This document shows positions 4,065-15,800 of a stretch of 64,000 nucleotides of DNA, piece by piece. The stretch comes from Flavobacteriales bacterium. GTDB taxonomy: Bacteria > Bacteroidota > Bacteroidia > CAIKAF01. Position 1 is the stretch's first letter; the number at the start of each line of letters is the position of its first letter. Location of the stretch: the NCBI GenBank assembly GCA_022402535.1, contig JAKRSD010000031.1, positions 6,499 to 70,498 of the forward strand, given 5' to 3'. The position numbers and the translations under genes were made by a program. The notes beneath the pieces were generated by a model. That model did not search any database. It was not told where the DNA came from and saw only the letters and a program-made list of their open reading frames with translations.

Positions 4065-5075
4065 ATGATTCATCCTGTTTTTCAGTCCTTAAAATTTCAA
4101 CTTTTTCTTTGTGTGTTTCTGACTTTAGTCGCCGGGTTATGGATTGTATTTTCAAACCCGTTTTTCCCCAAAGTGGCTTTGGTGGAAAATCCCTTTCCGT
4201 ATCGATTTGCCGTTTTAGGATTTGTACCGCCGTTGTGGCTGCTTTATTTCCGTAGGAAAAAAGTAGCTATCGTTCTTCTTTTTACGCTTACACCGGCATT
4301 GTTTGTTACCAACCTGAATATGCTCAGACCCGATTTGTTTTTTATCTGGTTGTGTATGCTCACCGTGGGGTTTGCCCAAACACGCGAACAGGTGTATAAC
4401 GGTGTTTTGGTGATTTTGGCGGGAATGTATTTGTGGACAGGCATTCATAAGGTGCATTGGGATTTTGTGAAAAACACGGCTTGGGTTTTTGAAACCCGGC
4501 TATTTGGAAAAGTTTTTCCCAAGTGGATGCTGTATGCCTTAGCCGCAAGTATCCCCGTGCTTGAAATTATTCTAGGTCTTTTGTTTTTTTCTTCTAAAAC
4601 CACGTTGCGCCGGATTCTGGGTATCGCCCTGCATGCCGGGATTTTAGTGTTTCTGTTGGTAGGTGGGTGGAATGCCACCATGATCCCCTGGAATGTGGCG
4701 CTGCTGATGTTACACATTGTTTTGGTGGCCAAATTCGATGCAGAGGTTCAGTCTCAATCAAACGGGTTGAAGGTTCCGGCCACCATTGCCTTGGTTTTGC
4801 CGGTTTTGTACTTCGTGAATATTTGGCCCGGAATGCTTTCGTGGAATATGTATTCTGCCAGAATTCAACATATTTATATGCCTGTAACGGATGAATTGGC
4901 GCTATATCCGCCTGATTATGTGCGCGAATATGTCTACCGACGCGATATTCTCTATGTAATCAGCCTTTCGGAATGGGCTGACGGCGCCACGGGCGGACCA
5001 CATGTAAACGAACCAATTTTCCGGGAAAGGGTGATTGAAGCCTGCGAAAAATTTCTGGAAGAAAATCCTCAATAG
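4065..5075 (+). CDS. Multi-pass membrane protein, HTTM/DoxX-like (unknown function)
   Basis: 336 residues with about eight hydrophobic segments spread from residue 10 to about 260, then a soluble C-terminal tail of roughly 75 residues. The segment YLWTGIHKVHWDFV resembles the GlxKL..F signature seen in HTTM and DoxX-like membrane proteins, but I cannot assign a family with certainty. It starts 9 nt after the aldolase stop. No enzymatic motif is recognised. Confidence 0.75.
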   Translation: MIHPVFQSLKFQLFLCVFLTLVAGLWIVFSNPFFPKVALVENPFPYRFAVLGFVPPLWLLYFRRKKVAIVLLFTLTPALFVTNLNMLRPDLFFIWLCMLTVGFAQTREQVYNGVLVILAGMYLWTGIHKVHWDFVKNTAWVFETRLFGKVFPKWMLYALAASIPVLEIILGLLFFSSKTTLRRILGIALHAGILVFLLVGGWNATMIPWNVALLMLHIVLVAKFDAEVQSQSNGLKVPATIALVLPVLYFVNIWPGMLSWNMYSARIQHIYMPVTDELALYPPDYVREYVYRRDILYVISLSEWADGATGGPHVNEPIFRERVIEACEKFLEENPQ

Positions 5076-5082
5076 GGTGCGT

Positions 5083-6099
5083 TTACTTTTTCTTCTTTTT
5101 GGGGGCTATATACGGACTGCCCGGAATGACGATTTTATCATACATCCGCTGGTGTATAGGCGCATAAAATGTTACGGCAACCTGCGGCGCTTCCAACGTA
5201 ATTGTAATATCAGAAAGTACGCCGTTTACCACCCGTTTAAAATATACCCGTTTGAATAAAGTAGGCCTTAATAATCCATTCACATTTTCCCGGTAAGTAC
5301 CTGTCAAAACACCATATACTTCTTTCGATGGAAGTTTGGGCGTTGAGGCTTTGAATTTGTAATTTAAATACATACCCGGGTTGGTTTTGAGCTTGGTCAG
5401 TTCTGCTTTGGCGGCTAATCCTGCCGCTGTTGAATCGGCCGAAGGTTTTATTTCATAGGTGAATCGGGCACGTCCGTCATCAATCAGAAATCCGTTTGAT
5501 TTAGCATCGTTTTGTGGCTGAGTGCGCCAAAATACAGGTAATTCCGTACTGATTCCTGTTTCAGGATCGGTGTAAGGTTTATAGGGAATGTTTTCATCCC
5601 ATTTCAGCGTCTGCCCCATATTTACCAATACCTGTTCGTACGATTCGGAACTTTTTCTTTCCATATCAAAAAAGAAAAGCAGCGCATTGTATTCGTGATT
5701 GATATGAAAATACACCATAAAGGCAATCACTTTATATGCCCGGCTATCATCCACAAATTCCATGACGAGGCGGTCGGCATCGAGGCCGCCCAAAGAACCT
5801 CTGCCTTTTTCGCGCATTTGCAGGTTTACGATGTTTTCATCGTTATATAAATCTTTTTCAAACATGCGTTGAAGGCTGTCCGCATTGAATTTGTTGGAAA
5901 GGTTAAATCCCTTCAAATAAAATTCAGTGATGTTATTGGTGATGATGTAACTCATTTCACCTACGCGGTTAACGCTGTAATCATTCAGGTGTTTAAACTC
6001 AACCGGGTATTCAGTAATGCGAAAAGGGGTATAAATATCCTGGCTTTTAGCCGATAAAGAAACGAACAGCAGTAGGAGAATTCCTGAAACTTTTTTCAT
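5083..6099 (-). CDS. Secreted protein of unknown function
   Basis: 338 residues. I place the start at ATG 6099 (MKKVSGILLLLFVSLSAKSQ, a clean signal peptide) rather than at a further upstream start, because a -7 box at 6127-6134 lies inside the longer frame. The mature protein is mixed alpha/beta without a motif I recognise, and it ends in five lysines. It is convergent with the membrane-protein gene (7 bp between stops) and divergent from gltX. Probably periplasmic or outer-membrane associated. Confidence 0.75.
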   Translation of the reverse strand: MKKVSGILLLLFVSLSAKSQDIYTPFRITEYPVEFKHLNDYSVNRVGEMSYIITNNITEFYLKGFNLSNKFNADSLQRMFEKDLYNDENIVNLQMREKGRGSLGGLDADRLVMEFVDDSRAYKVIAFMVYFHINHEYNALLFFFDMERKSSESYEQVLVNMGQTLKWDENIPYKPYTDPETGISTELPVFWRTQPQNDAKSNGFLIDDGRARFTYEIKPSADSTAAGLAAKAELTKLKTNPGMYLNYKFKASTPKLPSKEVYGVLTGTYRENVNGLLRPTLFKRVYFKRVVNGVLSDITITLEAPQVAVTFYAPIHQRMYDKIVIPGSPYIAPKKKKK

Positions 6100-6126
6100 G
6101 CGAATTTTAATTTTTACAAACGGTTT

Positions 6127-6134
6127 CAAAGGTA
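6127..6134 (-). promoter_or_regulatory. -7 box (TACCTTTG) for the secreted unknown at 5083-6099
   Basis: Minus-strand TACCTTTG matches TAnnTTTG in all fixed positions, 28 nt before ATG 6099. It supports the short start. Confidence 0.5.
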
Positions 6135-6195
6135 AACGGATTTTCATCGTCCGAAGTATTGAGTTTTCAAATACTGAAATGCAAAGCGGATTCGC

Positions 6196-6203
6196 TACTT
6201 TTG
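6196..6203 (+). promoter_or_regulatory. -7 box (TACTTTTG) for gltX
   Basis: Full TAnnTTTG match 19 nt before ATG 6222. It excludes the frame-extended start at 6159 and implies a leader of about a dozen nucleotides. Confidence 0.55.
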
Positions 6204-6221
6204 CCCCCTTATTCAGAATGT

Positions 6222-7763
6222 ATGAGCGATAAGAAAGTAAGAGTGCGGTTTGCGCCAAGTCCTACGGGTCCGTTGCATTTGGGCGGTGTAAGAACAGCTT
6301 TATATAACTATTTGTTTGCCCGCAAACATGGAGGTGACTTCTTGTTGCGGATTGAAGATACCGACCAGACACGTTATGTGCCGGGTGCTGAAGAATATAT
6401 CATCGAATCGTTGAAATGGTTGGGTATCATGTACGATGAAGGTCCGGGAAAAGAGGGGGAATTTGCTCCTTATCGTCAGAGCGAACGCAAACCAATGTAC
6501 AGGCAGTATGCCGAACAATTGATAGAATCCGGTCATGCGTATTATGCATTTGACACTACCGAGGAATTGGAAACCATGCGGGTAAACCTACAGAAGGCGG
6601 GTTCTTCTTCGCCTTCTTATAATTTCATCAGCCGAAACAGTATGAAAAATTCGCTTACGCTTCCGGCCGATGAAGTGCAGCGACGCATTGATAACGGTGA
6701 TCCCTATGTAATCCGGATTAAGATTCCACGTAACGAAGAAGTGCATCTGGAGGATTTGGTGAGAGGCGTGGTGGTAGTGAATACCAATACGCTGGATGAT
6801 AAAGTGCTTTTTAAAAGCGACGGAATGCCCACGTATCACCTGGCCAATATTGTGGATGACTATCTGATGAAAATTACCCATGTAATCCGTGGTGAAGAAT
6901 GGCTTCCCTCGGCACCCACCCACGTGCTTTTATACCGATTTTTGGGTTGGGAAGCCGATATGCCGAGCTTTGCGCATCTTCCGCTGATTTTAAAACCCGA
7001 CGGAAACGGAAAATTAAGCAAACGCGACGGCGATCGTCTCGGATTTCCTGTGTTTCCATTACAATGGACCGATCCCAATTCGGGAGAAGTGTCATCCGGA
7101 TATCGTGAATCGGGTTATTTTAAAGAAGCAGTTATTAATATATTAGCCCTTTTGGGTTGGCATCCTACCGATAATCAGGAATTGTTTTCGTTAGATGAAC
7201 TGGTAGAAGCATTTTCGCTGGAAAAGGTATCTAAGGCCGGGGCCAAATTTGATTTTGAAAAAGCCAAATGGTTTAATCGTGAATACTTAAAATCCACACC
7301 CGATAAGGAATTGGCGGAAGCCGTAAAACCATATGCAATTGCTGGTGGTGCGGATGTCTCTGATGAATATTTGCAGGGAGCCTGCCGGCTGATGAAAGAG
7401 CGGGCCACATTCATTAAAGATGTGTTTGAAAAAGGACGCTACTTATTTTTTGCTCCTTCGGCTTACGACGAAAATACCCTTGCCAAAAAATGGAAACCCG
7501 GCACGGCCGATTTTATTTCACAATTACTGGCCGATTTATCTACCGATGAAGCGTTCACGGGTGCTTCGTTAGAGTCAAGAGGAAAAGCTTGGCTCGAGGC
7601 GAACAAATTAGGTTTTGGAGCCATCATGCCGGTGTTCAGGGTTTTATTGACAGGCGAAGGAGAAGGCCCCGCAATTTTTGAAATATGTGCCCTGTTGGGT
7701 AAAGAAGAAATGAAATCCCGCATAGAGTCAGGTCTTTCAGTCTGTAAATCAAAATATGAATAA
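6222..7763 (+). CDS. gltX: Glutamyl-tRNA synthetase
   Basis: 513 residues; charges tRNA-Glu with glutamate. The class I HIGH motif appears as PLHLGG (residues 17-22) after FAPSPTG, and the KMSKS motif as GKLSKRDG (about 262-269). The catalytic fold is followed by the helical anticodon-binding region. I chose ATG 6222 (MSDKKVRVRFAPSPTG) because homologues begin just before RFAPSPTG and because a -7 box lies at 6196-6203. The stop overlaps the folB start by 8 nt, so the two are translationally coupled. Confidence 0.97.
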   Translation: MSDKKVRVRFAPSPTGPLHLGGVRTALYNYLFARKHGGDFLLRIEDTDQTRYVPGAEEYIIESLKWLGIMYDEGPGKEGEFAPYRQSERKPMYRQYAEQLIESGHAYYAFDTTEELETMRVNLQKAGSSSPSYNFISRNSMKNSLTLPADEVQRRIDNGDPYVIRIKIPRNEEVHLEDLVRGVVVVNTNTLDDKVLFKSDGMPTYHLANIVDDYLMKITHVIRGEEWLPSAPTHVLLYRFLGWEADMPSFAHLPLILKPDGNGKLSKRDGDRLGFPVFPLQWTDPNSGEVSSGYRESGYFKEAVINILALLGWHPTDNQELFSLDELVEAFSLEKVSKAGAKFDFEKAKWFNREYLKSTPDKELAEAVKPYAIAGGADVSDEYLQGACRLMKERATFIKDVFEKGRYLFFAPSAYDENTLAKKWKPGTADFISQLLADLSTDEAFTGASLESRGKAWLEANKLGFGAIMPVFRVLLTGEGEGPAIFEICALLGKEEMKSRIESGLSVCKSKYE

Positions 7764-8115
7764 GACGGCCCGATATACCATTTCCCGCATTGAAATCAAG
7801 GCTCCCATCGGCTGGTACGAAAAAGAGCAGCAGGAGGGAAATGTGTTTTGGGTAGATATTTCATACAATGCGGAGTTTGCGCATGCGGCCAACACTGATG
7901 AGCTTTCAGATGCGGTGGATTATGAACAGATTTGCAATACTGTGGAACAGTGTTTTCAAAAAAAATGCAGGCTGCTCGAACAAATAGCTCTTCACGTTGT
8001 TTCAACCCTCAAAGAAAAATTCCCTTCCATTTCTGATTTGGATGTAAAAATTACCAAATTGCGGCCTCCGGTTTCGCAACGAGTGGAAGGTATTTCTATT
8101 GAAATAAAGGGGTAA
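7756..8115 (+). CDS. folB: Dihydroneopterin aldolase
   Basis: 119 residues, the normal size. Converts 7,8-dihydroneopterin to 6-hydroxymethyl-7,8-dihydropterin plus glycolaldehyde in folate synthesis. Recognised from the family pattern: GWYEKEQQEGN near the N-terminus (the usual G..EeR. position), DELSDAVDYEQI, the LLEQIA helix and the ITKLRPPV strand. It overlaps gltX by 8 nt. Confidence 0.9.
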   Translation: MNKTARYTISRIEIKAPIGWYEKEQQEGNVFWVDISYNAEFAHAANTDELSDAVDYEQICNTVEQCFQKKCRLLEQIALHVVSTLKEKFPSISDLDVKITKLRPPVSQRVEGISIEIKG

Positions 8116-8119
8116 AACC

Positions 8120-8326
8120 ATGCAGGAAGAAGACAAGAAAAAGGAAGATAAGGACATCAACAGAAGTTGTCCCCGATGCAAAGCGGGTTTTCATTGCGAC
8201 GAGCAGGAGGGTTGTTGGTGCGAAAAATTAACCTTAGATCAAGCTACCCTGAAGTTTCTGCGCATGAACTATATTGACTGTTTGTGCGAAAACTGTCTGA
8301 AAACCTTTGATTTAGGGAAAAATTAA
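8120..8326 (+). CDS. Small cysteine-rich CWC protein
   Basis: 68 residues with a charged N-terminus and eight cysteines: CPRC, C, CWC, and CLCENC. This matches the cysteine-rich CWC family, whose members are thought to bind a metal, probably zinc; function is unknown. It starts 4 nt after folB and likely ends the gltX-folB operon. Confidence 0.75.
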   Translation: MQEEDKKKEDKDINRSCPRCKAGFHCDEQEGCWCEKLTLDQATLKFLRMNYIDCLCENCLKTFDLGKN

Positions 8327-8355
8327 AGCAAAACGATTCAGCGTACATTTTTTTA

Positions 8356-8363
8356 TATTTTTG
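8356..8363 (+). promoter_or_regulatory. -7 box (TATTTTTG) for tRNA-Cys
   Basis: Full TAnnTTTG match, ending 12 nt before the tRNA. Confidence 0.5.
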
Positions 8364-8375
8364 CAACGCTCTAAA

Positions 8376-8446
8376 GGTGCTGTGGCCGAGTGGCTAGGCT
8401 CAGGTCTGCAAAACCTGCTACAGCGGTTCGAATCCGCTCGGCACCT
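8376..8446 (+). tRNA. tRNA-Cys (GCA)
   Basis: 71 nt. The acceptor stem GGTGCTG pairs with CGGCACC (one G-U). The anticodon stem CAGGT/ACCTG encloses loop CTGCAAA, giving anticodon GCA. The T arm is AGCGG-TTCGAAT-CCGCT and the discriminator is U, as expected for tRNA-Cys. CCA is not encoded, so the window's CCA-adding enzyme is needed. Confidence 0.95.
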
Positions 8447-8559
8447 CATCAAATCCAACCCCATGGGGTTGGATTTTTCATTTTAAAACCAAACCAAGCT
8501 TGCTTGCGTTTTGGTTTTAAAATGAAAAATCTACTTCACGCAGTGAAGTGGATTTGATG
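8447..8559. repeat. Nested inverted-repeat element downstream of tRNA-Cys
   Basis: Three nested or adjacent inverted repeats: outer arms of 11 nt (CATCAAATCCA 8447-8457 with TGGATTTGATG 8549-8559); the 24-bp palindrome 8452-8475; and a perfect 22-nt pair, 8472-8493 with 8510-8531. A hairpin ACTTCAC-GCA-GTGAAGT lies inside the right part. Together they could form a large cruciform or structured RNA. No reading frame explains it. Confidence 0.8.
8452..8475 (+). terminator. Palindromic terminator after tRNA-Cys
   Basis: A perfect 24-bp palindrome (AATCCAACCCCA / TGGGGTTGGATT) 5 nt after the tRNA, followed by a T run (8474-8478). Confidence 0.65.
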
Positions 8560-8704
8560 TTCGGGTTTATAATTCCGGATCACGAGAGTAATCCGCTCTT
8601 TGCGTTTTGGTTTTAAAATGAAAAATCTACTTCACGCAGTGAAGTAGATTTGATGTTCGGGTTTATCATTCCGGATCACGAGAGTAATCCGCTCTTTGCG
8701 TTTT
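8504..8704. repeat. 96-bp tandem duplication in the gap before the EnvC-like gene
   Basis: Copy 1 is 8504-8599 and copy 2 is 8600-8695, with only two differences (8550 G to 8646 A; 8571 A to 8667 C). A third copy begins (TTGCGTTTT, 8696-8704) and breaks off. Each copy holds the CTACTTCAC-GCA-GTGAAGT(A/G)G hairpin and a CGGAT...ATCCG pair. The rest of the gap to 8782 shows no gene or convincing promoter. Confidence 0.9.
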
Positions 8705-8782
8705 CAATTATTAACGCCTGTATGTTGACACTTCCCGTTGAGGTTTAAAATATTCCCGGGTCCTTCTTCGTTTTTTTGTAAT

Positions 8783-10111
8783 ATGAATAGTTGGCTTAAA
8801 TCGGCAATGGTGTTGTGTGCGTTTAGTTGGGTGGCGTTAAGTCCGTTGTATGCACAAACATCAAAGTCAAAGCCTAAAGCCAAAAAAACGGTTTCCGAAA
8901 AAGTGAAACTGGAACAGCAGAAGAAAAAGCTGATGAGTGATATTTCGGCTACGAATAAATTGCTGAAGGAAACCGAAAAAAACAAAGAAGCGGCATTGCA
9001 AAGGGCGGGATTGCTAAACACAAAAATCCAACAGCGCAATGCACTCATCAACACTTACCGGAGTCAGGTTACCTTTCTGGAGGGGCAGATTAATCAAAAC
9101 AGAAAAGAAATTTCTAAGCTCGAAAATCAGCTGAATGCCATGAAAAGTTCATACAGCCGAATGATTTTTCTGGCATACAAAAACCGTGAGAGTAACGATA
9201 ATATCATGTATATTCTTGCGGCTGATAATATCAACTCGGCCTACCGTAGGTTTAATTATTTCAAACAGGCGAGCGATTTCAGAAGACTGAAAGCGGAAAA
9301 AATCAAATATGTGCGAGAAGGCATCACCAAGGTGACCAATGAACTCGAGGAGGACCGAACCCAAAAAGCCCGTCTGCTGGAAGAAGAAACAGGGCAGCGA
9401 CAACTCTTGGAATCTGAGAAAAAGGAACAGGAAGTGTTGGTTGTCCAACTAAAAGGTAAAGAAGCCGAACTGAAGAAAAGGATTGAGAAAAATGAACGGG
9501 AACGGATTAACCTGGAGGCGAAAATCAAGAAAATTATTGATGCGGAAATAGCCGCGGAGAAAAAACGCGCCGAGGAAAAAGCCCGGAAAGATGCCGAGAA
9601 AAAAGCGGCCGCTTCCACACCTTCTACGAAGCCGGGAACAACCACCAAGCCTGCGGATAAGCCCGTGGTTATGAATGTAACCCCCGAAACGCGGGCACTT
9701 TCCAATTCTTTTGAAGGCAATAAAGGAGCACTTCCCTGGCCGGTAGAAAAAGGAGCCATCACGGGAAATTTTGGCACCCATCCGCATGCCGTTCTGAAAA
9801 ATATTACCGTAAAAAACGATGGAATTGATATCACTGCGCCGGCGGGTTCATCGGCCAGAGCCGTATTTTCAGGAACAGTTTCAGGTGTGTTTCCCGTAGA
9901 AGGATACGGAACCGTGGTTATTATACGTCATGGCGAATACCTCACTGTATATTCCAATCTTGCGGATGTATCTGTTTCCAAAGATCAAAAGGTGAAAGCC
10001 AAAGACAAAATCGGCAATATCGAAACTTCCGAAAATGGAAAGTGTGTCATGAACTTTCAGATTCGGAAAGGCTCCGCAATTTTAAATCCGTCGGGCTGGC
10101 TGGCGCGATAA
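8783..10111 (+). CDS. EnvC-like murein hydrolase activator (degenerate M23 domain)
   Basis: 442 residues. A signal peptide (start chosen at ATG 8783, MNSWLKSAMVLCAF... to LYAQ) is followed by a long charged coiled coil (about residues 30-275), a Pro/Thr/Lys linker, and a C-terminal LytM/M23 domain (about 320-442). The zinc-binding residues are absent: the H-x3-D position reads NDGID, and the H-x-H position reads MNFQ. EnvC-type proteins of this kind do not cut peptidoglycan but activate N-acetylmuramoyl-L-alanine amidases at division. A candidate partner amidase is encoded at 25263-26465. This partnership is inference. Confidence 0.85.
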   Translation: MNSWLKSAMVLCAFSWVALSPLYAQTSKSKPKAKKTVSEKVKLEQQKKKLMSDISATNKLLKETEKNKEAALQRAGLLNTKIQQRNALINTYRSQVTFLEGQINQNRKEISKLENQLNAMKSSYSRMIFLAYKNRESNDNIMYILAADNINSAYRRFNYFKQASDFRRLKAEKIKYVREGITKVTNELEEDRTQKARLLEEETGQRQLLESEKKEQEVLVVQLKGKEAELKKRIEKNERERINLEAKIKKIIDAEIAAEKKRAEEKARKDAEKKAAASTPSTKPGTTTKPADKPVVMNVTPETRALSNSFEGNKGALPWPVEKGAITGNFGTHPHAVLKNITVKNDGIDITAPAGSSARAVFSGTVSGVFPVEGYGTVVIIRHGEYLTVYSNLADVSVSKDQKVKAKDKIGNIETSENGKCVMNFQIRKGSAILNPSGWLAR

Positions 10112-10140
10112 GATTTTTTACCTTAGCCAAAAATAAACAC

Positions 10141-10605
10141 ATGTGGTCGCAGAATAAGGCATTGTTTTTTATACTTTTTGCCATTGTTTTTTGGAGTTCA
10201 TGTAAACCCGAAAAATGCAACGATGAACGTGACGACCGATTTGGATTAGCGGTTGAATTCGCCGATGAATCCCCCTGTAATCCTGAAGTAACCTTGTATA
10301 AGTTTCTCGGAAGGTTCAGCATGACGGATGTGTGTAATTTTTCAACCAATGAGTATGAACTTATTATTGAATCACCCGATTTGAATAATTACAGCGTAGA
10401 AATTCGCAATATCTATAATACGACCGGACAGTATATTTTATCGGCAACGGTTTCACGAAATAATCTTACGATACCCGAACAGACAGTAAATAATGTTGTG
10501 TTCAGCGGTCAGGCTCAGGTTTCAGGCAATGTGCTTACGGGAACCTATCAGCTGTCTAATATGGGAAGCACTGATGAATGTACTTTTACGGCGACTAAAT
10601 TATAA
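10141..10605 (+). CDS. Putative lipoprotein of unknown function
   Basis: 154 residues. I chose ATG 10141, which gives a lipoprotein signal (FAIVFWSSC) with the lipid-bearing cysteine at about residue 21; a longer frame would start inside the upstream gene. The mature part has paired cysteines and beta-strand-like alternation (SGNVLTGTYQLSN), typical of small Bacteroidota envelope lipoproteins of the lipocalin-like or DUF type. No family assigned. Confidence 0.7.
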   Translation: MWSQNKALFFILFAIVFWSSCKPEKCNDERDDRFGLAVEFADESPCNPEVTLYKFLGRFSMTDVCNFSTNEYELIIESPDLNNYSVEIRNIYNTTGQYILSATVSRNNLTIPEQTVNNVVFSGQAQVSGNVLTGTYQLSNMGSTDECTFTATKL

Positions 10606-10656
10606 CTAAACAATTCCTGTTTTTCTCAGTTAATATAACTCAAACAATAAATAATT

Positions 10657-11163
10657 ATGAATCTGATTGCTGTTCTTTTTGCCATGGTTTTTTCGTCTAC
10701 AAACGGAATATATGAATACTCGTTCACCACGTTGGAAGGGCGTGAGGTGAAAATGTCTGAATTTAAAGGAAGAAAAATTTTAATTTTTAATTCGGCTTCT
10801 AAGTGTGGCTATACCGGTCAGTTGGCCCAATTTGAAGAATTGAATAAAAAATATTCGGGTAATTTGGTGGTTATCGGCTTCCCGTCAAACGATTTTATGC
10901 AGGAACATAAAGATAAAACCCAAGTGGGCGAGGTTTGCTACGGAAAGTATAATGTCACATTTATCATGGCCGAACAGGTAAAAGTGAAAGGAAAAGAGGC
11001 GCATCCCATTTTTAAATGGTTAACCGAACAGGAGAACCCCGATTTTACAGGAGAAATAAACTGGAATTTCGAAAAATTTCTGGTAGATGAAAACGGCAAA
11101 CTGATCCGCCGTTGGCGTTCTAAAACATCACCCACTTCTGCAGAAATTACTTCCGCATTGTAA
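10657..11163 (+). CDS. Glutathione peroxidase family protein (thiol peroxidase)
   Basis: 168 residues. The peroxidatic cysteine is C50 in NSASKCGYT. The family segments GFPSNDF and WNFEKFLVD (catalytic Trp and Asn) are present. Non-selenium members usually take electrons from thioredoxin. The usual NQF glutamine position is Asp here. The first 16 residues are hydrophobic and look like a signal peptide, so the enzyme probably works in the periplasm. A strong terminator follows. Confidence 0.9.
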   Translation: MNLIAVLFAMVFSSTNGIYEYSFTTLEGREVKMSEFKGRKILIFNSASKCGYTGQLAQFEELNKKYSGNLVVIGFPSNDFMQEHKDKTQVGEVCYGKYNVTFIMAEQVKVKGKEAHPIFKWLTEQENPDFTGEINWNFEKFLVDENGKLIRRWRSKTSPTSAEITSAL

Positions 11164-11184
11164 TCCGTTAACAAGATTTTAATT

Positions 11185-11211
11185 GGCCGCTCCTTCAGAG
11201 TGGCCTTTTTT
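11185..11211 (+). terminator. Intrinsic terminator after glutathione peroxidase
   Basis: Stem GGCCGCTC / GAGTGGCC (one G-U pair) with a CTTCA-type loop, followed by six T. Confidence 0.85.
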
Positions 11212-11227
11212 ATTTCATAAAATGTAT

Positions 11228-11265
11228 TTAGTTTGTATCGTGAACAGTTTACAATATTAACTGTT
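11228..11265 (+). promoter_or_regulatory. Candidate promoter and MarR operator
   Basis: A -7-like box TTAGTTTG (11228-11235, 7 of 8) is followed at once by an inverted repeat AACAGTT-N9-AACTGTT (11243-11265). The repeat lies 23 nt before the marR ATG, where a bound regulator would block transcription. A GGAG sequence 4 nt before the ATG is an unusually clear Shine-Dalgarno for this genome. Confidence 0.5.
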
Positions 11266-11287
11266 TAACGAGTTAATTAAAAGGAGC

Positions 11288-11773
11288 ATGATTACTAACA
11301 CGGCTGTGGATAAAAATTTACCCCTCGGACATTATTTGGCCGTATTGTCCAAATCGTATGTAGGGGCATTGATTAAAAGGCTGGAAGATAGTCCGGTGGA
11401 TAGGTATTACATGGTTATTCAGGTATTGCATCAGGCGAAAACACCTTTCACGCAGCAATCTTTAGGCGATTTTTTAAATGTGGATAAAGTAACGATGGTT
11501 CGTATCCTCGATCATCTTTCTGAAAAAGGATTTATCAACCGGGTAAACAATCCGAACGACCGCCGCGAAAAATTATTGGAACTGACGGATGCCGGCACTA
11601 AAGCCGTAAAAGAGATTGATGCCGCCACCAAAGAGCTCAACTGTAAAGCAACCAAGGATTTCACGGACGAAGAAAAAGCATTGTTTTATCAGCTGATTGA
11701 AAAAATGAATGATAATCTGTGCGATATCCCGGTTAAAAAAATATATCTGAATTTTAAACGAAGCAAAAAATAA
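11288..11773 (+). CDS. MarR-family transcriptional regulator
   Basis: 161 residues with the MarR winged helix: recognition-helix region FTQQSLGDFLNVDKVTMVRILDHL (about 57-80, shown here in part only by its key residues L62, V66, V69 and R73) and the wing with the DRREK motif (about 95-99). It starts the operon marR-MFP-RND-TolC (8 nt to the next gene), so it most likely represses its own efflux pump and is released by a small-molecule ligand. The palindrome at 11243-11265 is a candidate binding site. Confidence 0.9.
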   Translation: MITNTAVDKNLPLGHYLAVLSKSYVGALIKRLEDSPVDRYYMVIQVLHQAKTPFTQQSLGDFLNVDKVTMVRILDHLSEKGFINRVNNPNDRREKLLELTDAGTKAVKEIDAATKELNCKATKDFTDEEKALFYQLIEKMNDNLCDIPVKKIYLNFKRSKK

Positions 11774-11781
11774 ATCTACCC

Positions 11782-12846
11782 ATGATTAAATCATATTATT
11801 CAATAGCCGGTTTGATGGCCTCGTTGCTTTGGCTGAATTCCTGCGGAAACAAAAGTGGGGAAACGACTCCGGGAGCCGGTGCAAAACCAAATCCACCCGC
11901 CATGGTGGAAGGTTATGTGGTAAAAACCGAACAGGTTTCAAATTCGCTCACTGTTCCCGGTACTTTGCAGGCTTCCGAGTCGGTGGAATTACGTTCGGAA
12001 ATTCAAGGCCGGATTACCGATATTTTTTTCAAAGAAGGTACATCTGTATCCAAGGGCCAGTTGTTGGTAAAACTGTATGACGCCGATTTAAAAGCCGAAT
12101 GGAAATCACTCACCTCTCAAAAAGAACTGGCGGTAAAAAATGAAAACCGGCTGAAAAAAATGCTCGATATAAACGGTATTTCACAGCAGGATTATGATGC
12201 CGCAGTGCTGAAAGTGGCTGAACTGGATGCCTCCATAGAATTGGTGCAGGCTAAAATTACCCGCACCGAAATCAGGGCGCCTTTTGCGGGAACCGTGGGG
12301 CTTCGCCGAATCAGCGAAGGAGCGGTGGTTTCGCCGGCCGATGTGTTGGCCGTATTGGTGAAAAATAATCCCCTGAATTTAGATTTCACCCTGCAGGAGC
12401 GTTATGCATACGCATTAAACGGAAAGGAAAAAATTACCTTCAGTGTGCAGGGTGTGGAGGGTACTTTTCCTGCAAAAATCGTAGCCCGTGAGTCTGTACT
12501 AGATAATAATTCCCGCTCCCTGAAAGTGCGGGCCCACTTCGATAACGCAAAAGGTAATCTGTTGGCGGGCGCTTTTGCAACAGTAGCCATAACCTTTGAA
12601 GATATTCCCGAAGCGGTTCTTATACCTAATCAAGCGGTGATTCCGGAAGCGCGTGGTAAAAAAGTAATTGTTTCCCGAAACGGAGTGGCTGAATTTGCCC
12701 AGGTGATTACAGGCACTCGCGATGCCGACCGGGTAATGATTGAATCGGGTATTAAACCGGGCGATACCATTGCCATTACAGGTTTGTTACGTATTCGTCC
12801 CGGAACCGAAATCCGATTTAAAAACTTGCAAAACGCCAAACCATGA
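11782..12846 (+). CDS. RND efflux periplasmic adaptor (membrane fusion protein)
   Basis: 354 residues. Lipoprotein signal (SLLWLNSC, Cys about residue 21). The lipoyl half-motifs (VELRSEIQGRI, then IRAPFAGTVGLRRIS) flank an alpha-helical hairpin; beta-barrel and membrane-proximal domains follow (LLAGAFATVAI, IPNQAV). It joins the inner-membrane pump to the outer-membrane channel. Its stop overlaps the pump start (ATGA). Confidence 0.93.
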   Translation: MIKSYYSIAGLMASLLWLNSCGNKSGETTPGAGAKPNPPAMVEGYVVKTEQVSNSLTVPGTLQASESVELRSEIQGRITDIFFKEGTSVSKGQLLVKLYDADLKAEWKSLTSQKELAVKNENRLKKMLDINGISQQDYDAAVLKVAELDASIELVQAKITRTEIRAPFAGTVGLRRISEGAVVSPADVLAVLVKNNPLNLDFTLQERYAYALNGKEKITFSVQGVEGTFPAKIVARESVLDNNSRSLKVRAHFDNAKGNLLAGAFATVAITFEDIPEAVLIPNQAVIPEARGKKVIVSRNGVAEFAQVITGTRDADRVMIESGIKPGDTIAITGLLRIRPGTEIRFKNLQNAKP

Positions 12847-15800
12847 GTTTACCCAAACTAGCCATAAACAGGCCGGTTCTGGCCGTGGTGATGAATCTGA
12901 TTCTGGTGCTTTTCGGAGCCATCGGTTATACCTTTTTGGGCGTGAGGGAATTTCCATCGGTAGATCCGCCGGTGATTACCGTGCGCACCAATTACACGGG
13001 GGCCAATGCCGATATTATCGAATCGCAGATTACCGAACCGCTCGAAAAAGCCATCAACGGAATTGCGGGAATAAAATCAATTTCTTCTTCCAGTAATCAG
13101 GGAAACAGCTCCATCACTGTGGAATTTGAACTTGGGGTGGATCTGGAAGCTGCCGCCAATGATGTACGCGATAAGGTTTCTCAGGCCGTGCGAAATCTTC
13201 CGCAGGATATTGATGCACCGCCCGTGGTAAGTAAAGCCGATGCCAACTCCGATGCTATTCTTTCCATGCTGGTTCAGAGCGATACCCGTACCCAATTAGA
13301 AATTACGGATTACGCCACTAATGTGCTGCAGGAAAGATTGCAGACTATTCCCGGTGTTTCTTCGCTTCAGATTTGGGGAGAAAAACGGTATGCCATGCGT
13401 CTGTGGCTCGATCCGGGAAAAATGACCGGTCTGAATGTTTCTTTGGTCGAAGTGAATGAAGCCTTGCAACGCGAAAATGTGGAACTGCCTTCGGGTAAAA
13501 TTTCGGGTTATACGAATGAACTTACCCTGCGTACCTTCGGAAAAATGGAAACGGAAGAGGATTTCAATAACCTGATTATCCGCTCGACCGACGAGGGCGT
13601 AGTACGACTCAAAGATGTGGGGTATGCCGTGTTGGGACCCGAAAATCCCGAAACCATCCTGAAAGAATCGGGTACGCCCATGATCGGACTGGCCATCATT
13701 CCGCTTCCCGGAGCCAATTATGTGGAAATTTCCGACGAGTTTTATAAGCGGTACGAACAGCTTCAAAAAGAAGTGCCTGAGGATATAAAACTTTCCATCG
13801 GTCTGGATTCCACCGAGTTTATCAAAAAGTCAATTCTGGAGGTGAAAGAAACCCTCATCATCGCCTTTATCTTGGTGGTGTTAATCATTTTTCTCTTCTT
13901 CAGGGATTGGTTGATTGCCCTCCGTCCGTTGATTGATATTCCCATTTCGTTGGTTGCCACATTTTTCATCATGTACATTTCCGGGTTCACCATCAATGTG
14001 CTCACGCTGTTGGGAATTGTATTGGCCACGGGTTTGGTGGTGGATGATGGTATCGTAGTCACCGAAAATATTTTCAAAAAATTAGAATCGGGACTCAAGC
14101 CCAAAGAAGCCGCCATTAAAGGTTCAGAAGAAATTGTGTTTGCCGTAATTTCCACATCCATCACATTGGCAGTGGTGTTTTTACCCATCATTTTCCTTCA
14201 GGGTTTTGTGGGCCGGTTGTTTCGCGAGTTTGGTATTGTGGTAGCGGGAGCCGTATTGATTTCTTCTTTTGTATCGCTCACCATCACGCCGGTATTAAGC
14301 GTAAAAATGTCCAGAAACAACGATAAAAAATCACGCTTTTACACGGCCACGGAACCTTTCTTCGAAGGCATGATAAACGGATATAAAAGGATTTTATCTG
14401 CTTTTATGCGGGTAAGAGGACTGGCTATACTTATGATTATCCTTTGCTTCGGGATGATTGTGTATTTCTTCAAATTACTGCCTACCGAGTTGGCGCCTCT
14501 CGAAGACCGCTCCAATTTCCGGCTATCGCTTACGGCTCCCGAAGGTACTTCTTTCGAGGCCATGGATGATTTTGTCGGCGAGGTAAGCCGTTTTGTGGTG
14601 GACAGTGTACCCGAAGCGGATGTAGTAATCAGTGTAACCGCTCCCGGTTTTATCGGCTCCGGCTCGCCCAATACCGGTTTTGTACGCGCAAGACTTATCT
14701 CTCCTTCCGACAGGGTGCGCTCCCAGCAGGATGTGGTGGATGCGATAAACCGTAATATGGGAAAATTTTCGCAGGGAAGAGTGTTTACCATTCAGGAGCA
14801 GACTATTTCATCGGGCGGACGATTTGCCGGTTTGCCTGTTCAGTTTGTATTACAGAATAACGATTTTGAAAAAATCCGTGAGTTTATGCCCAAATTTTTG
14901 GAAGCCGCTTCCAAAGACCCGGTGTTTAATATCACGGATGTCAACCTCAAATTCAACAAACCCGAATTGCTCATCCGGCCCGATCGCGAAAAAGCCGCCA
15001 ACCTGGGGGTATCCGTAGCGGATATCAATCGTACCTTGCAGTTAGCCTACAGTGGTTTGCGCCTTTCGTATTTCAACATGCGGGGTAAACAATATCAGGT
15101 GATTGGTCAGGCCGACCGGGTAAACCGAGATGATCCTGATGATTTGAAACTGCTTTTTGTGAAGAACAGAGCCGGGCAGCTAATCAGTCTGGATAATGTG
15201 ATCTCAATTGAAGAAGTTTCGGCTCCGCCCCAGCTTTACCACTATAACCGTTATAAATCGGCAACCGTTTCTGCAGGTTTGGCCCCCGGAAAAACTATGG
15301 GAGATGGGGTGGAAGCCATGCAACGCATAGCTGATGAAGTGCTTGATGATACTTTCGCAACTTCGCTTTCCGGTCCCTCGCGCGATTTTGCAGAAAGTTC
15401 TTCCAATACGTTTTTTGCGTTTGCCTTAGCGTTGGTATTGGTTTATCTGGTATTGGCAGCTCAGTTCGAAAGTTTTATAGATCCGGTGATTATTATGATT
15501 ACGGTGCCGCTTGCCATTGCAGGGGCTTTACTGTCGCTTTGGATTTTCGGGCAGACCATCAATATTTTCAGTCAGATTGGTATCATTATGTTGATTGGTC
15601 TGGTAACCAAAAACGGAATTTTGATTGTGGAGTTTGCCAACAAAATCAAAGAAAGCGGAGCGAAAAAATCAGAAGCTGTGGTGGAAGCGGCATCTATGCG
15701 TCTCCGACCGATTTTGATGACTACACTGGCTACCATGCTGGGTGCGTTGCCTATTGCCCTTTCGTTGGGCGCTGCTTCGCAGAGCCGCATGCCGCTCGGA

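Follow-up and report, generated by a model that had tools for sequence, protein, structure and literature searches.

Downstream of the tRNA-Cys gene in the window (the whole 64,000-nucleotide stretch of DNA analysed here) lies a palindromic, protein-free structure that is probably an inserted, non-autonomous element, about 100-190 bp long, with the T-arm of the tRNA gene as its insertion site. The structure has a nested anatomy, repeats the T-stem of its tRNA, recurs at tRNA ends, is followed in some loci by displaced tRNA ends, and forms arrays. The features of the locus are as follows.

8376..8447, + strand: tRNA-Cys (GCA), the host gene of the element (ARAGORN; Rfam tRNA, 60.5 bits)
8431..8439, + strand: AATCCGCTC in the T-loop and the 3' strand of the T-stem of the tRNA, copy 1 of a direct repeat, left junction
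8447..8457, + strand: left arm of the outer stem, beginning at the tRNA 3' end (repeat search and fold)
8451..8476, + strand: intrinsic-terminator-like hairpin, a 26-bp palindrome, followed by TTCATTTTAA
8472..8493, + strand: left arm of the long central hairpin, including the T-tract of the terminator
8494..8509, + strand: apex of the long central hairpin, CCAAGCTTGCTTGCGT
8510..8531, + strand: right arm of the long central hairpin
8527..8555, + strand: third hairpin, with a CAC-GCA-GTG loop region, terminator-like on the - strand
8549..8559, + strand: right arm of the outer stem
8560..8575, + strand: linker of ~16 nt, C-rich in many relatives, not here
8576..8595, + strand: fourth hairpin (hp4), CGGAT-C-AC-GAGA-GT-A-ATCCG, with a C.A mismatch
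8590..8598, + strand: AATCCGCTC, direct repeat copy 2, 159 bp after copy 1
8600..8695, + strand: second unit, right half only, 98% identical to 8504-8599
8672..8691, + strand: hp4 of the second unit
8686..8694, + strand: AATCCGCTC, direct repeat copy 3, 96 bp after copy 2

The outer stem encloses the terminator hairpin, the long central hairpin and the third hairpin. As RNA, the 113-nt stretch folds at -54.4 kcal/mol; 200 dinucleotide shuffles averaged -20.7 (sd 3.2) and none folded as well (z = -10.6). The nested inverted repeats of the original prediction are thus real. The two 11-nt arms of the outer pair (8447-8457 and 8549-8559) are 100% complementary, as predicted, and the perfect 22-nt pair was found at 8472-8493 and 8510-8531, its arms extending to 24 nt if one mismatch is allowed. 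The predicted perfect palindrome is also present, but with two 13-nt arms and no spacer it measures 26 bp rather than 24. The feature also extends further than the predicted 113 bp. Overlooked were the third hairpin, which lies inside the outer pair, hp4, the 9-nt direct repeat and a tandem duplication in which the 96 bp of the right half (8504-8599) recur at 8600-8695 (98% identity; TRF 8504-8704). Folded as DNA, 8448-8596 gave z = -9.9 and -10.1 on the two strands, while hp4 alone (8570-8598) was unremarkable, with z = -1.4 on the + strand and -2.7 on the - strand. The 3' side of hp4 is a repeat of the tRNA-Cys T-stem: the 9-mer AATCCGCTC lies in direct orientation on the 3' side of both hp4 copies (8590 and 8686), and within the 64 kb it occurs otherwise only in the tRNA. 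Reading of the ORFs of window positions 5000-13000 revealed no recognisable recombinase.

We then examined recurrence within the genome that contains the window (G000). A sequence search found no second copy of 8448-8700, and the arms are single-copy, with nothing outside the locus better than E = 0.06. The arm-copy search proposed with the original prediction therefore does not reveal a dispersed element attached to tRNA ends, but the idea was right in kind, since the architecture recurs; at this level the element is neither single-copy nor without conservation in relatives, two of the findings that had been named as speaking against it. As judged by eye on folds of the sequences downstream of tRNAs, the same layout, with other stem sequences, follows tRNA-Gln, tRNA-Pro(GGG), tRNA-Pro(TGG), tRNA-Ser(TGA) and tRNA-Met, and a minimal form consisting of a terminator, a C-rich linker and hp4 follows tRNA-Ser(GGA). 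With tRNA-Cys included, the architecture is present after 7 of the 30 tRNAs examined, out of 33 tRNA matches in the genome. Possible further cases follow tRNA-Val (L021) and tRNA-Ala (L040, G000:C12:219447-219520). At the latter, the T-arm is copied with an additional hairpin in the loop; this copy carries 14 nt of the tRNA-Ala 3' end and is followed by a second, similar terminator, an arrangement that is perhaps a variant of the same element. Another copy (L083) stands after a sequence that has no gene call by ARAGORN but resembles the 3' end of a tmRNA or tRNA.

Stem sequences vary from locus to locus, and what the loci share is the architecture together with short motifs: the apex AAGCTTGCT, a CGCAG-type loop and a GGATCA..TAATCC hairpin. 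The apex with CGCAG at a distance beyond it was found at four loci of G000 (tRNA-Cys and three others) and not in the reversed control. Matches to the hp4 type GGATCA..TAATCC numbered eight, against none in the reversed control; one match, on C28, looked unrelated. A search of G000 and 39 relatives with the apex pattern AAGCTTGCTN{20,50}CGCAG gave, outside G000, strings that, judged by reading, looked unlike the element, and these were rejected. The arrays in G000 have periods of 67-70 bp (Pro-TGG), 95 bp (Ser-TGA), 96 bp (Cys), 105-107 bp (Gln) and 118-125 bp (Met). Runs of N lie within or beside three of the tRNA-linked arrays (L080 from 1560, L081 from 1581, and downstream in L037), so that array lengths in this assembly are uncertain and arrays are possibly under-counted. 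Just past the tRNA-Pro array, a different repeat (AAGCTCCGAAGGAGCGGCATAT, GCCCCTCTGGGGC) is present in more than one copy at about 1-440 of L033 (G000:C31, - strand).

To follow the motif more widely, the pattern GGATCACN{2,12}GTAATCC was searched across the class and was found in 94 of 395 genomes, with many of the matches in tandem; the reversed control gave 10 matches, and several of the single matches look like chance. Twenty stretches around class matches were fetched, picked mostly for tandem matches, and 17 of them hold a tRNA; two of the remaining three reach a contig end. A 17-mer of hp4, GGATCACGAAGTAATCC, was present in 116 stretches among 84,980 genomes, for which arithmetic gives a chance expectation of about 30 matches, and 82 of the 116 belong to Bacteroidota by title. 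The 17-mer lies no more than 800 nt downstream of a tRNA on the same strand in 63 Bacteroidota stretches (no more than 300 nt in 58). This corresponds to 63 of the 71 testable Bacteroidota stretches (those with such a tRNA or with at least 400 nt of upstream sequence), compared with 1 of 34 other stretches. Three of the eight Bacteroidota exceptions (L177, L218 and L279) have a tRNA-like end upstream on reading, and the sole non-Bacteroidota stretch near a tRNA, L238, comes from a MAG contig titled Rhizobium that is perhaps mis-binned. The tRNAs at these loci are of the Arg, Pro, Ser, Val, Tyr, Lys, Met, Leu and His types, and in 41 of the 63 loci, spanning many genera and tRNA types, the first hp4 begins 131-157 nt after the tRNA. 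Phage records gave no match to the element. Ten viral contigs contain the motif, with no tRNA called in up to 700 nt upstream, and were taken as chance; two plasmid matches, short and overlying the tRNA, were also discarded.

A link between hp4 and its host tRNA was apparent in the T-stem sequence. In G000, hp4 carries the T-stem of its own tRNA, AATCCGCTC for Cys, AATCCAT for Gln and AATCTTGCC for Pro-TGG; the last is an unusual sequence, found in tRNA-Pro(TGG) and likewise in its hp4. Tail and trailer tests were carried out on 64 loci (the 63 Bacteroidota loci and L238), with pairings to tRNAs of other isotypes as controls. Counted only beyond ATCC, which the search pattern fixes, the tail after hp4 matched its own tRNA for at least 2 nt in 39 of 64 loci (552 of 3138 control pairings) and for at least 8 nt in 6 of 64 (0 of 3138). 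The trailer, taken as the first 14 nt after the tRNA, showed complementarity of 8 nt or more to the 45 nt preceding hp4 in 39 of 64 loci, compared with 62 of 3138 controls. Within G000, a match of at least 9 nt to the 3' 19-mer of the tRNA was found 30-300 nt downstream for 4 of 30 tRNAs (Ser-GGA, 16 nt; Ala, 14 nt; Pro-TGG, 9 nt; Cys, 9 nt) and for 23 of 870 swapped pairs. With a stricter test for hairpins the contrast in G000 was weak: 5 of 30 tRNAs gave a match, compared with 38 of 838 swapped and 46 of 1500 shuffled controls, and the match at Trp is probably chance. The T-stem match extends over only a few nucleotides in most loci and could partly reflect pairing inside hp4.

The inner positions of hp4 were also compared. 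Of 14 GGAT..ATCC strings located downstream of tRNAs that have no 17-mer within 400 nt, 13 carry C and A as their first inner bases, although the pattern did not fix these; the count is 7 of 8 once six strings of L198, L240 and L285, where the 17-mer lies further on, are removed. The two bases form a C.A mismatch, which on the opposite strand reads as a T.G pair. Three-base hp4 loops among the class-search copies have the form GNA in 22 of 26 cases near a tRNA and in 8 of 13 away from a called tRNA, all eight of the latter in the L148 and L151 arrays. GNA loops are known in stable DNA mini-hairpins.

Signs of insertion were seen as direct repeats and displaced tRNA ends. The 3' part of the tRNA is repeated on both sides over 9 nt in the window and over 16 nt at Ser-GGA. 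A complete or nearly complete second tRNA 3' end follows hp4 at L161 and L227 (Val), L162 and L163 (Ser), and L228 and L229 (Arg), as well as at Ser(GGA) of G000 (the 16-nt match), and in several cases another terminator lies beyond the displaced end. At L163, the tRNA-Ser(TGA) locus of G159, 161 bp separate the two cores, and the sequence after hp4 aligns to the 3' flank of tRNA-Ser(TGA) in the genus mate G330 with 73% identity (E 1.4e-5). Only about 10 nt of the tRNA and about 69 nt beyond it take part in this 79-nt alignment. Judged from these sequences, G330 is a plausible empty site, though not a perfect one because the upstream flanks look different. The comparison of tRNA-Ser(TGA) among genus mates covered G330, G310 and G266, and no unit was seen at the loci of the latter two. 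For L162, the downstream flank matched G310 (70%, 423 nt) with no tRNA called beside the match, and for L161 no match was found in six other genomes of the family, so that neither search yielded an empty site. None of the filled and empty comparisons displayed a recent insertion with identical flanks, and all relatives searched lie outside the genus of the window genome.

Related cassettes at different loci and stacking of units were observed as well. In G159, the tRNA-Ser(GCT) cassette and the stretch that follows hp4 at tRNA-Ser(CGA) share 80% identity across 93 nt, a span that includes the tRNA end, and the tRNA-Ser(TGA) unit resembles the displaced terminator of tRNA-Ser(GCT); cassettes could have spread by exchange between tRNA-Ser genes. 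Full units, with tRNA ends and different terminators, are stacked in L154, while at the window locus the right half alone is stacked.

Three of the eight loci with no tRNA called within 800 nt, L239, L177 and L268, have a tyrosine recombinase gene (PF00589, PF13102) next to hp4. On the - strand of L239, a tRNA-Arg(ACG) gene (4641-4715) is followed by a terminator, a gene for a 424-aa tyrosine recombinase (PF00589, E 8e-13; PF13102; PF17293), an IS encoding rve and HTH_Tnp_1 proteins, and hp4 at 1713, about 2.9 kb after the tRNA. The hp4 T-stem AATCCTG is that of this tRNA-Arg, and no second copy of the last ten bases of the tRNA was found in the locus. L239 is possibly an autonomous relative of the element. 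In L177, the order is a gene for a 404-aa recombinase, a partial tRNA end, a unit, hp4 and then another tRNA end; L268 has a gene for a 481-aa recombinase ahead of an hp4 array, and L240 has a related recombinase gene near its tRNA. When the three recombinase proteins were used as queries, matches were obtained in 4 of 82 Bacteroidota loci and in none of 34 others, and recombinase genes near hp4 are therefore rare. Since tRNA genes are the usual targets of tyrosine-recombinase islands and attract them anyway, the link is circumstantial; such islands are nevertheless the leading candidates for helpers or ancestors of the element. A Y1 (HUH) transposase is probably not the mover: it showed no association with the motif across 15 motif-bearing and 12 motif-lacking genomes. 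Y1_Tnp, its subclasses taken together, has two matches in G000 and is present in 13 of the 15 genomes assigned as motif-bearing by the class pattern search, with tRNA context not confirmed for each, and in 9 of the 12 motif-lacking genomes. Its absence from two motif-bearing genomes (G076 and G377, both with arrays) and presence in the nine lacking the motif suggest, on this evidence, that it is neither necessary nor sufficient.

These recombinase loci bear most directly on a first alternative, in which larger islands, integrated at tRNA genes and equipped with tyrosine recombinases, lost their interior so that their left and right ends became joined, leaving the units as end pieces or remnants. 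The recombinase and IS lying between tRNA-Arg and an hp4 with its T-stem in L239, and the gene orders of L177 and L268, would fit such an origin. In L177 and L268, however, unit and island seem to be separate neighbours, L239 has no palindromic left half after its terminator, and the unit is compact and even in length, as seen from the position of the first hp4 in 41 of the 63 loci. We consider this alternative unlikely.

A second alternative is a module that serves the regulation or processing of tRNA transcription units and is inherited vertically. In it, selection would keep a strong two-way terminator and structured trailer, and tandem units would arise by unequal crossing-over. Between 8200 and 8900, three terminator-like hairpins were found, against a shuffle mean of 1.0 (sd 0.9), at 8451-8476 on the + strand and at 8533-8549 and 8623-8651 on the - strand. 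Their occurrence on both strands makes a regulatory role possible, and such a module would also agree with stems that stay paired while their sequences differ and with right-half units that are 98% identical. A terminator has no need, however, of T-stem repeats or of full displaced tRNA ends with second terminators, and hp4 lies beyond the terminator. The module would also have to account for sporadic occurrence at the same tRNA. All 29 loci of relatives fetched with the window's tRNA hold tRNA-Cys. When the 400 nt 3' of this gene were scanned (shorter stretches in L059, L061, L073 and L079 because of contig ends), only one of the loci, L059 of G004, had an hp4 with C..A inside GGAT..ATCC; the element at tRNA-Cys is thus sporadic among relatives. 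We regard a module of this kind as quite unlikely.

Two sets of these relatives' loci were noted separately. L059, from another genus of the family, has the same layout 3' of tRNA-Cys with the apex motif inverted (GCAAGCAAGCTTG). In L051-L054 (G009, G014, G015 and G005), from another genus of the family, very G+C-rich stretches 3' of tRNA-Cys fold at -98 to -114 kcal/mol in 200 nt and are unlike the tRNA-Cys element.

An intrinsic terminator, a G+C-bearing stem followed by a T-tract, is present at 8451-8476 and accounts for part of the structure only. It is very improbable that the whole is just a normal tRNA terminator in which palindromes arose by chance and a segment was locally duplicated: the arms are indeed single-copy in the genome, but the fold z-score of -10.6 and the recurrence in G000 and across Bacteroidota argue against it.

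For the preferred reading, a non-autonomous element inserted in the T-arm, we propose the following pathway. The left end of the element would be a copy of the 3' part of the tRNA from the T-loop onward, so that the tRNA stays whole; because this end would restore the tRNA and bring a terminator, insertion would be harmless. After it would come the element's own trailer and terminator, then an inverted copy folding these into a rod or cruciform, then the linker, and finally the terminal hairpin hp4 (GGAT-C..A-ATCC) as the right end, abutting the displaced T-stem copy. Mobility would depend on a site-specific recombinase acting in trans, with the tyrosine recombinases of islands at tRNA 3' ends as the most likely type. 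Such an enzyme would join the element, at its hp4/T-stem junction, to the T-arm of a tRNA gene whose 3' end is the same. The tandem arrays, in which distal units would decay or have no left half, may result from several such events or from unequal exchange between AATCC copies.

Beyond this locus, we tentatively raise the possibility of phylum-wide gene-less mobile elements that use the T-arm of tRNA, and perhaps tmRNA, as their site, are recognised through a folded hairpin, supply a new 3' end and terminator, form cassette-like arrays, and have tyrosine-recombinase islands as helpers. Under this broader proposal, hp4 may imitate the T-arm, with the loop replaced by a G..A-closed mini-hairpin bearing the near-invariant C.A mismatch. 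If the insertion reading is right, tiny parasites would have replaced the 3' ends and terminators of a considerable fraction of the tRNA genes in some Bacteroidota (7 of the 30 examined in G000), and inserts much smaller than islands would use tRNA 3' ends as platforms for recombination. The reading would also name a testable enzyme class.

We compared the element with known systems. A search of the literature by titles and the starts of abstracts, covering few subscription journals, returned no published description of these elements. A structured RNA, the other suggestion of the original prediction, is still conceivable, but in an Rfam scan of the locus only the tRNA reached its gathering score, and microRNA matches were taken as chance matches to long hairpins. 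The third hairpin has a weak likeness to the Chlorobi-1 RNA (RF01696): scores in the region were 20.3 bits, for this hairpin, and 18.5 bits, below the gathering score of 50, and no match was obtained in G000 at E <= 0.01 with stricter filters. Identity with Chlorobi-1 was rejected, as none of 22 loci with genuine or weaker matches has a tRNA and the six that were read have another layout. Chlorobi-1 RNAs themselves occur in tandem, about 225-235 bp apart, in L302 (G452) and at G463:C12:430889-431657, and in L302 a promoter-like TTGGCAC..TATAAT lies upstream of them.

Like REP, REPIN and BIME sequences, the element is short, palindromic, protein-free, often tandem and intergenic. Those sequences are thought to be moved in trans by hairpin-recognising HUH nucleases (RAYT/TnpA_REP) (PMC3733652, PMC6006769). 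The element differs in having no GTAG beside hp4, in sitting at tRNA ends and in having locus-specific stems. As no GTAG tag, by the definition of GTAG-class REPs in PMC3733652, flanks 8576-8595, and as the placement also differs, GTAG-type REPs were rejected as its identity. The C.A mismatch and G..A loops of hp4 are only suggestive of a likeness to a single-stranded site such as integron attC.

The tyrT/rtT locus of E. coli (RtT RNA) is similar in having tandem units right after a tRNA gene, each with a piece of the tRNA 3' end. Its units are 178 bp long and occur at one operon. Such tRNA 3'-end pieces in tandem units are present here at 8431, 8590 and 8686, as well as in other arrays, and the RtT covariance model had no match in the region at E up to 5 or up to 1. 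Unlike rtT, the element is found at many tRNA types in Bacteroidota and has a conserved terminal hairpin. With tRNA-integrating islands and satellites it shares a repeat extending from the T-loop to the tRNA 3' end, a replacement end borne by the insert, a displaced end on the far side, and the recombinase genes by hp4 in L239, L177 and L268. Unlike these, it is about 100-190 bp long, gene-less, palindromic and stacked in arrays.
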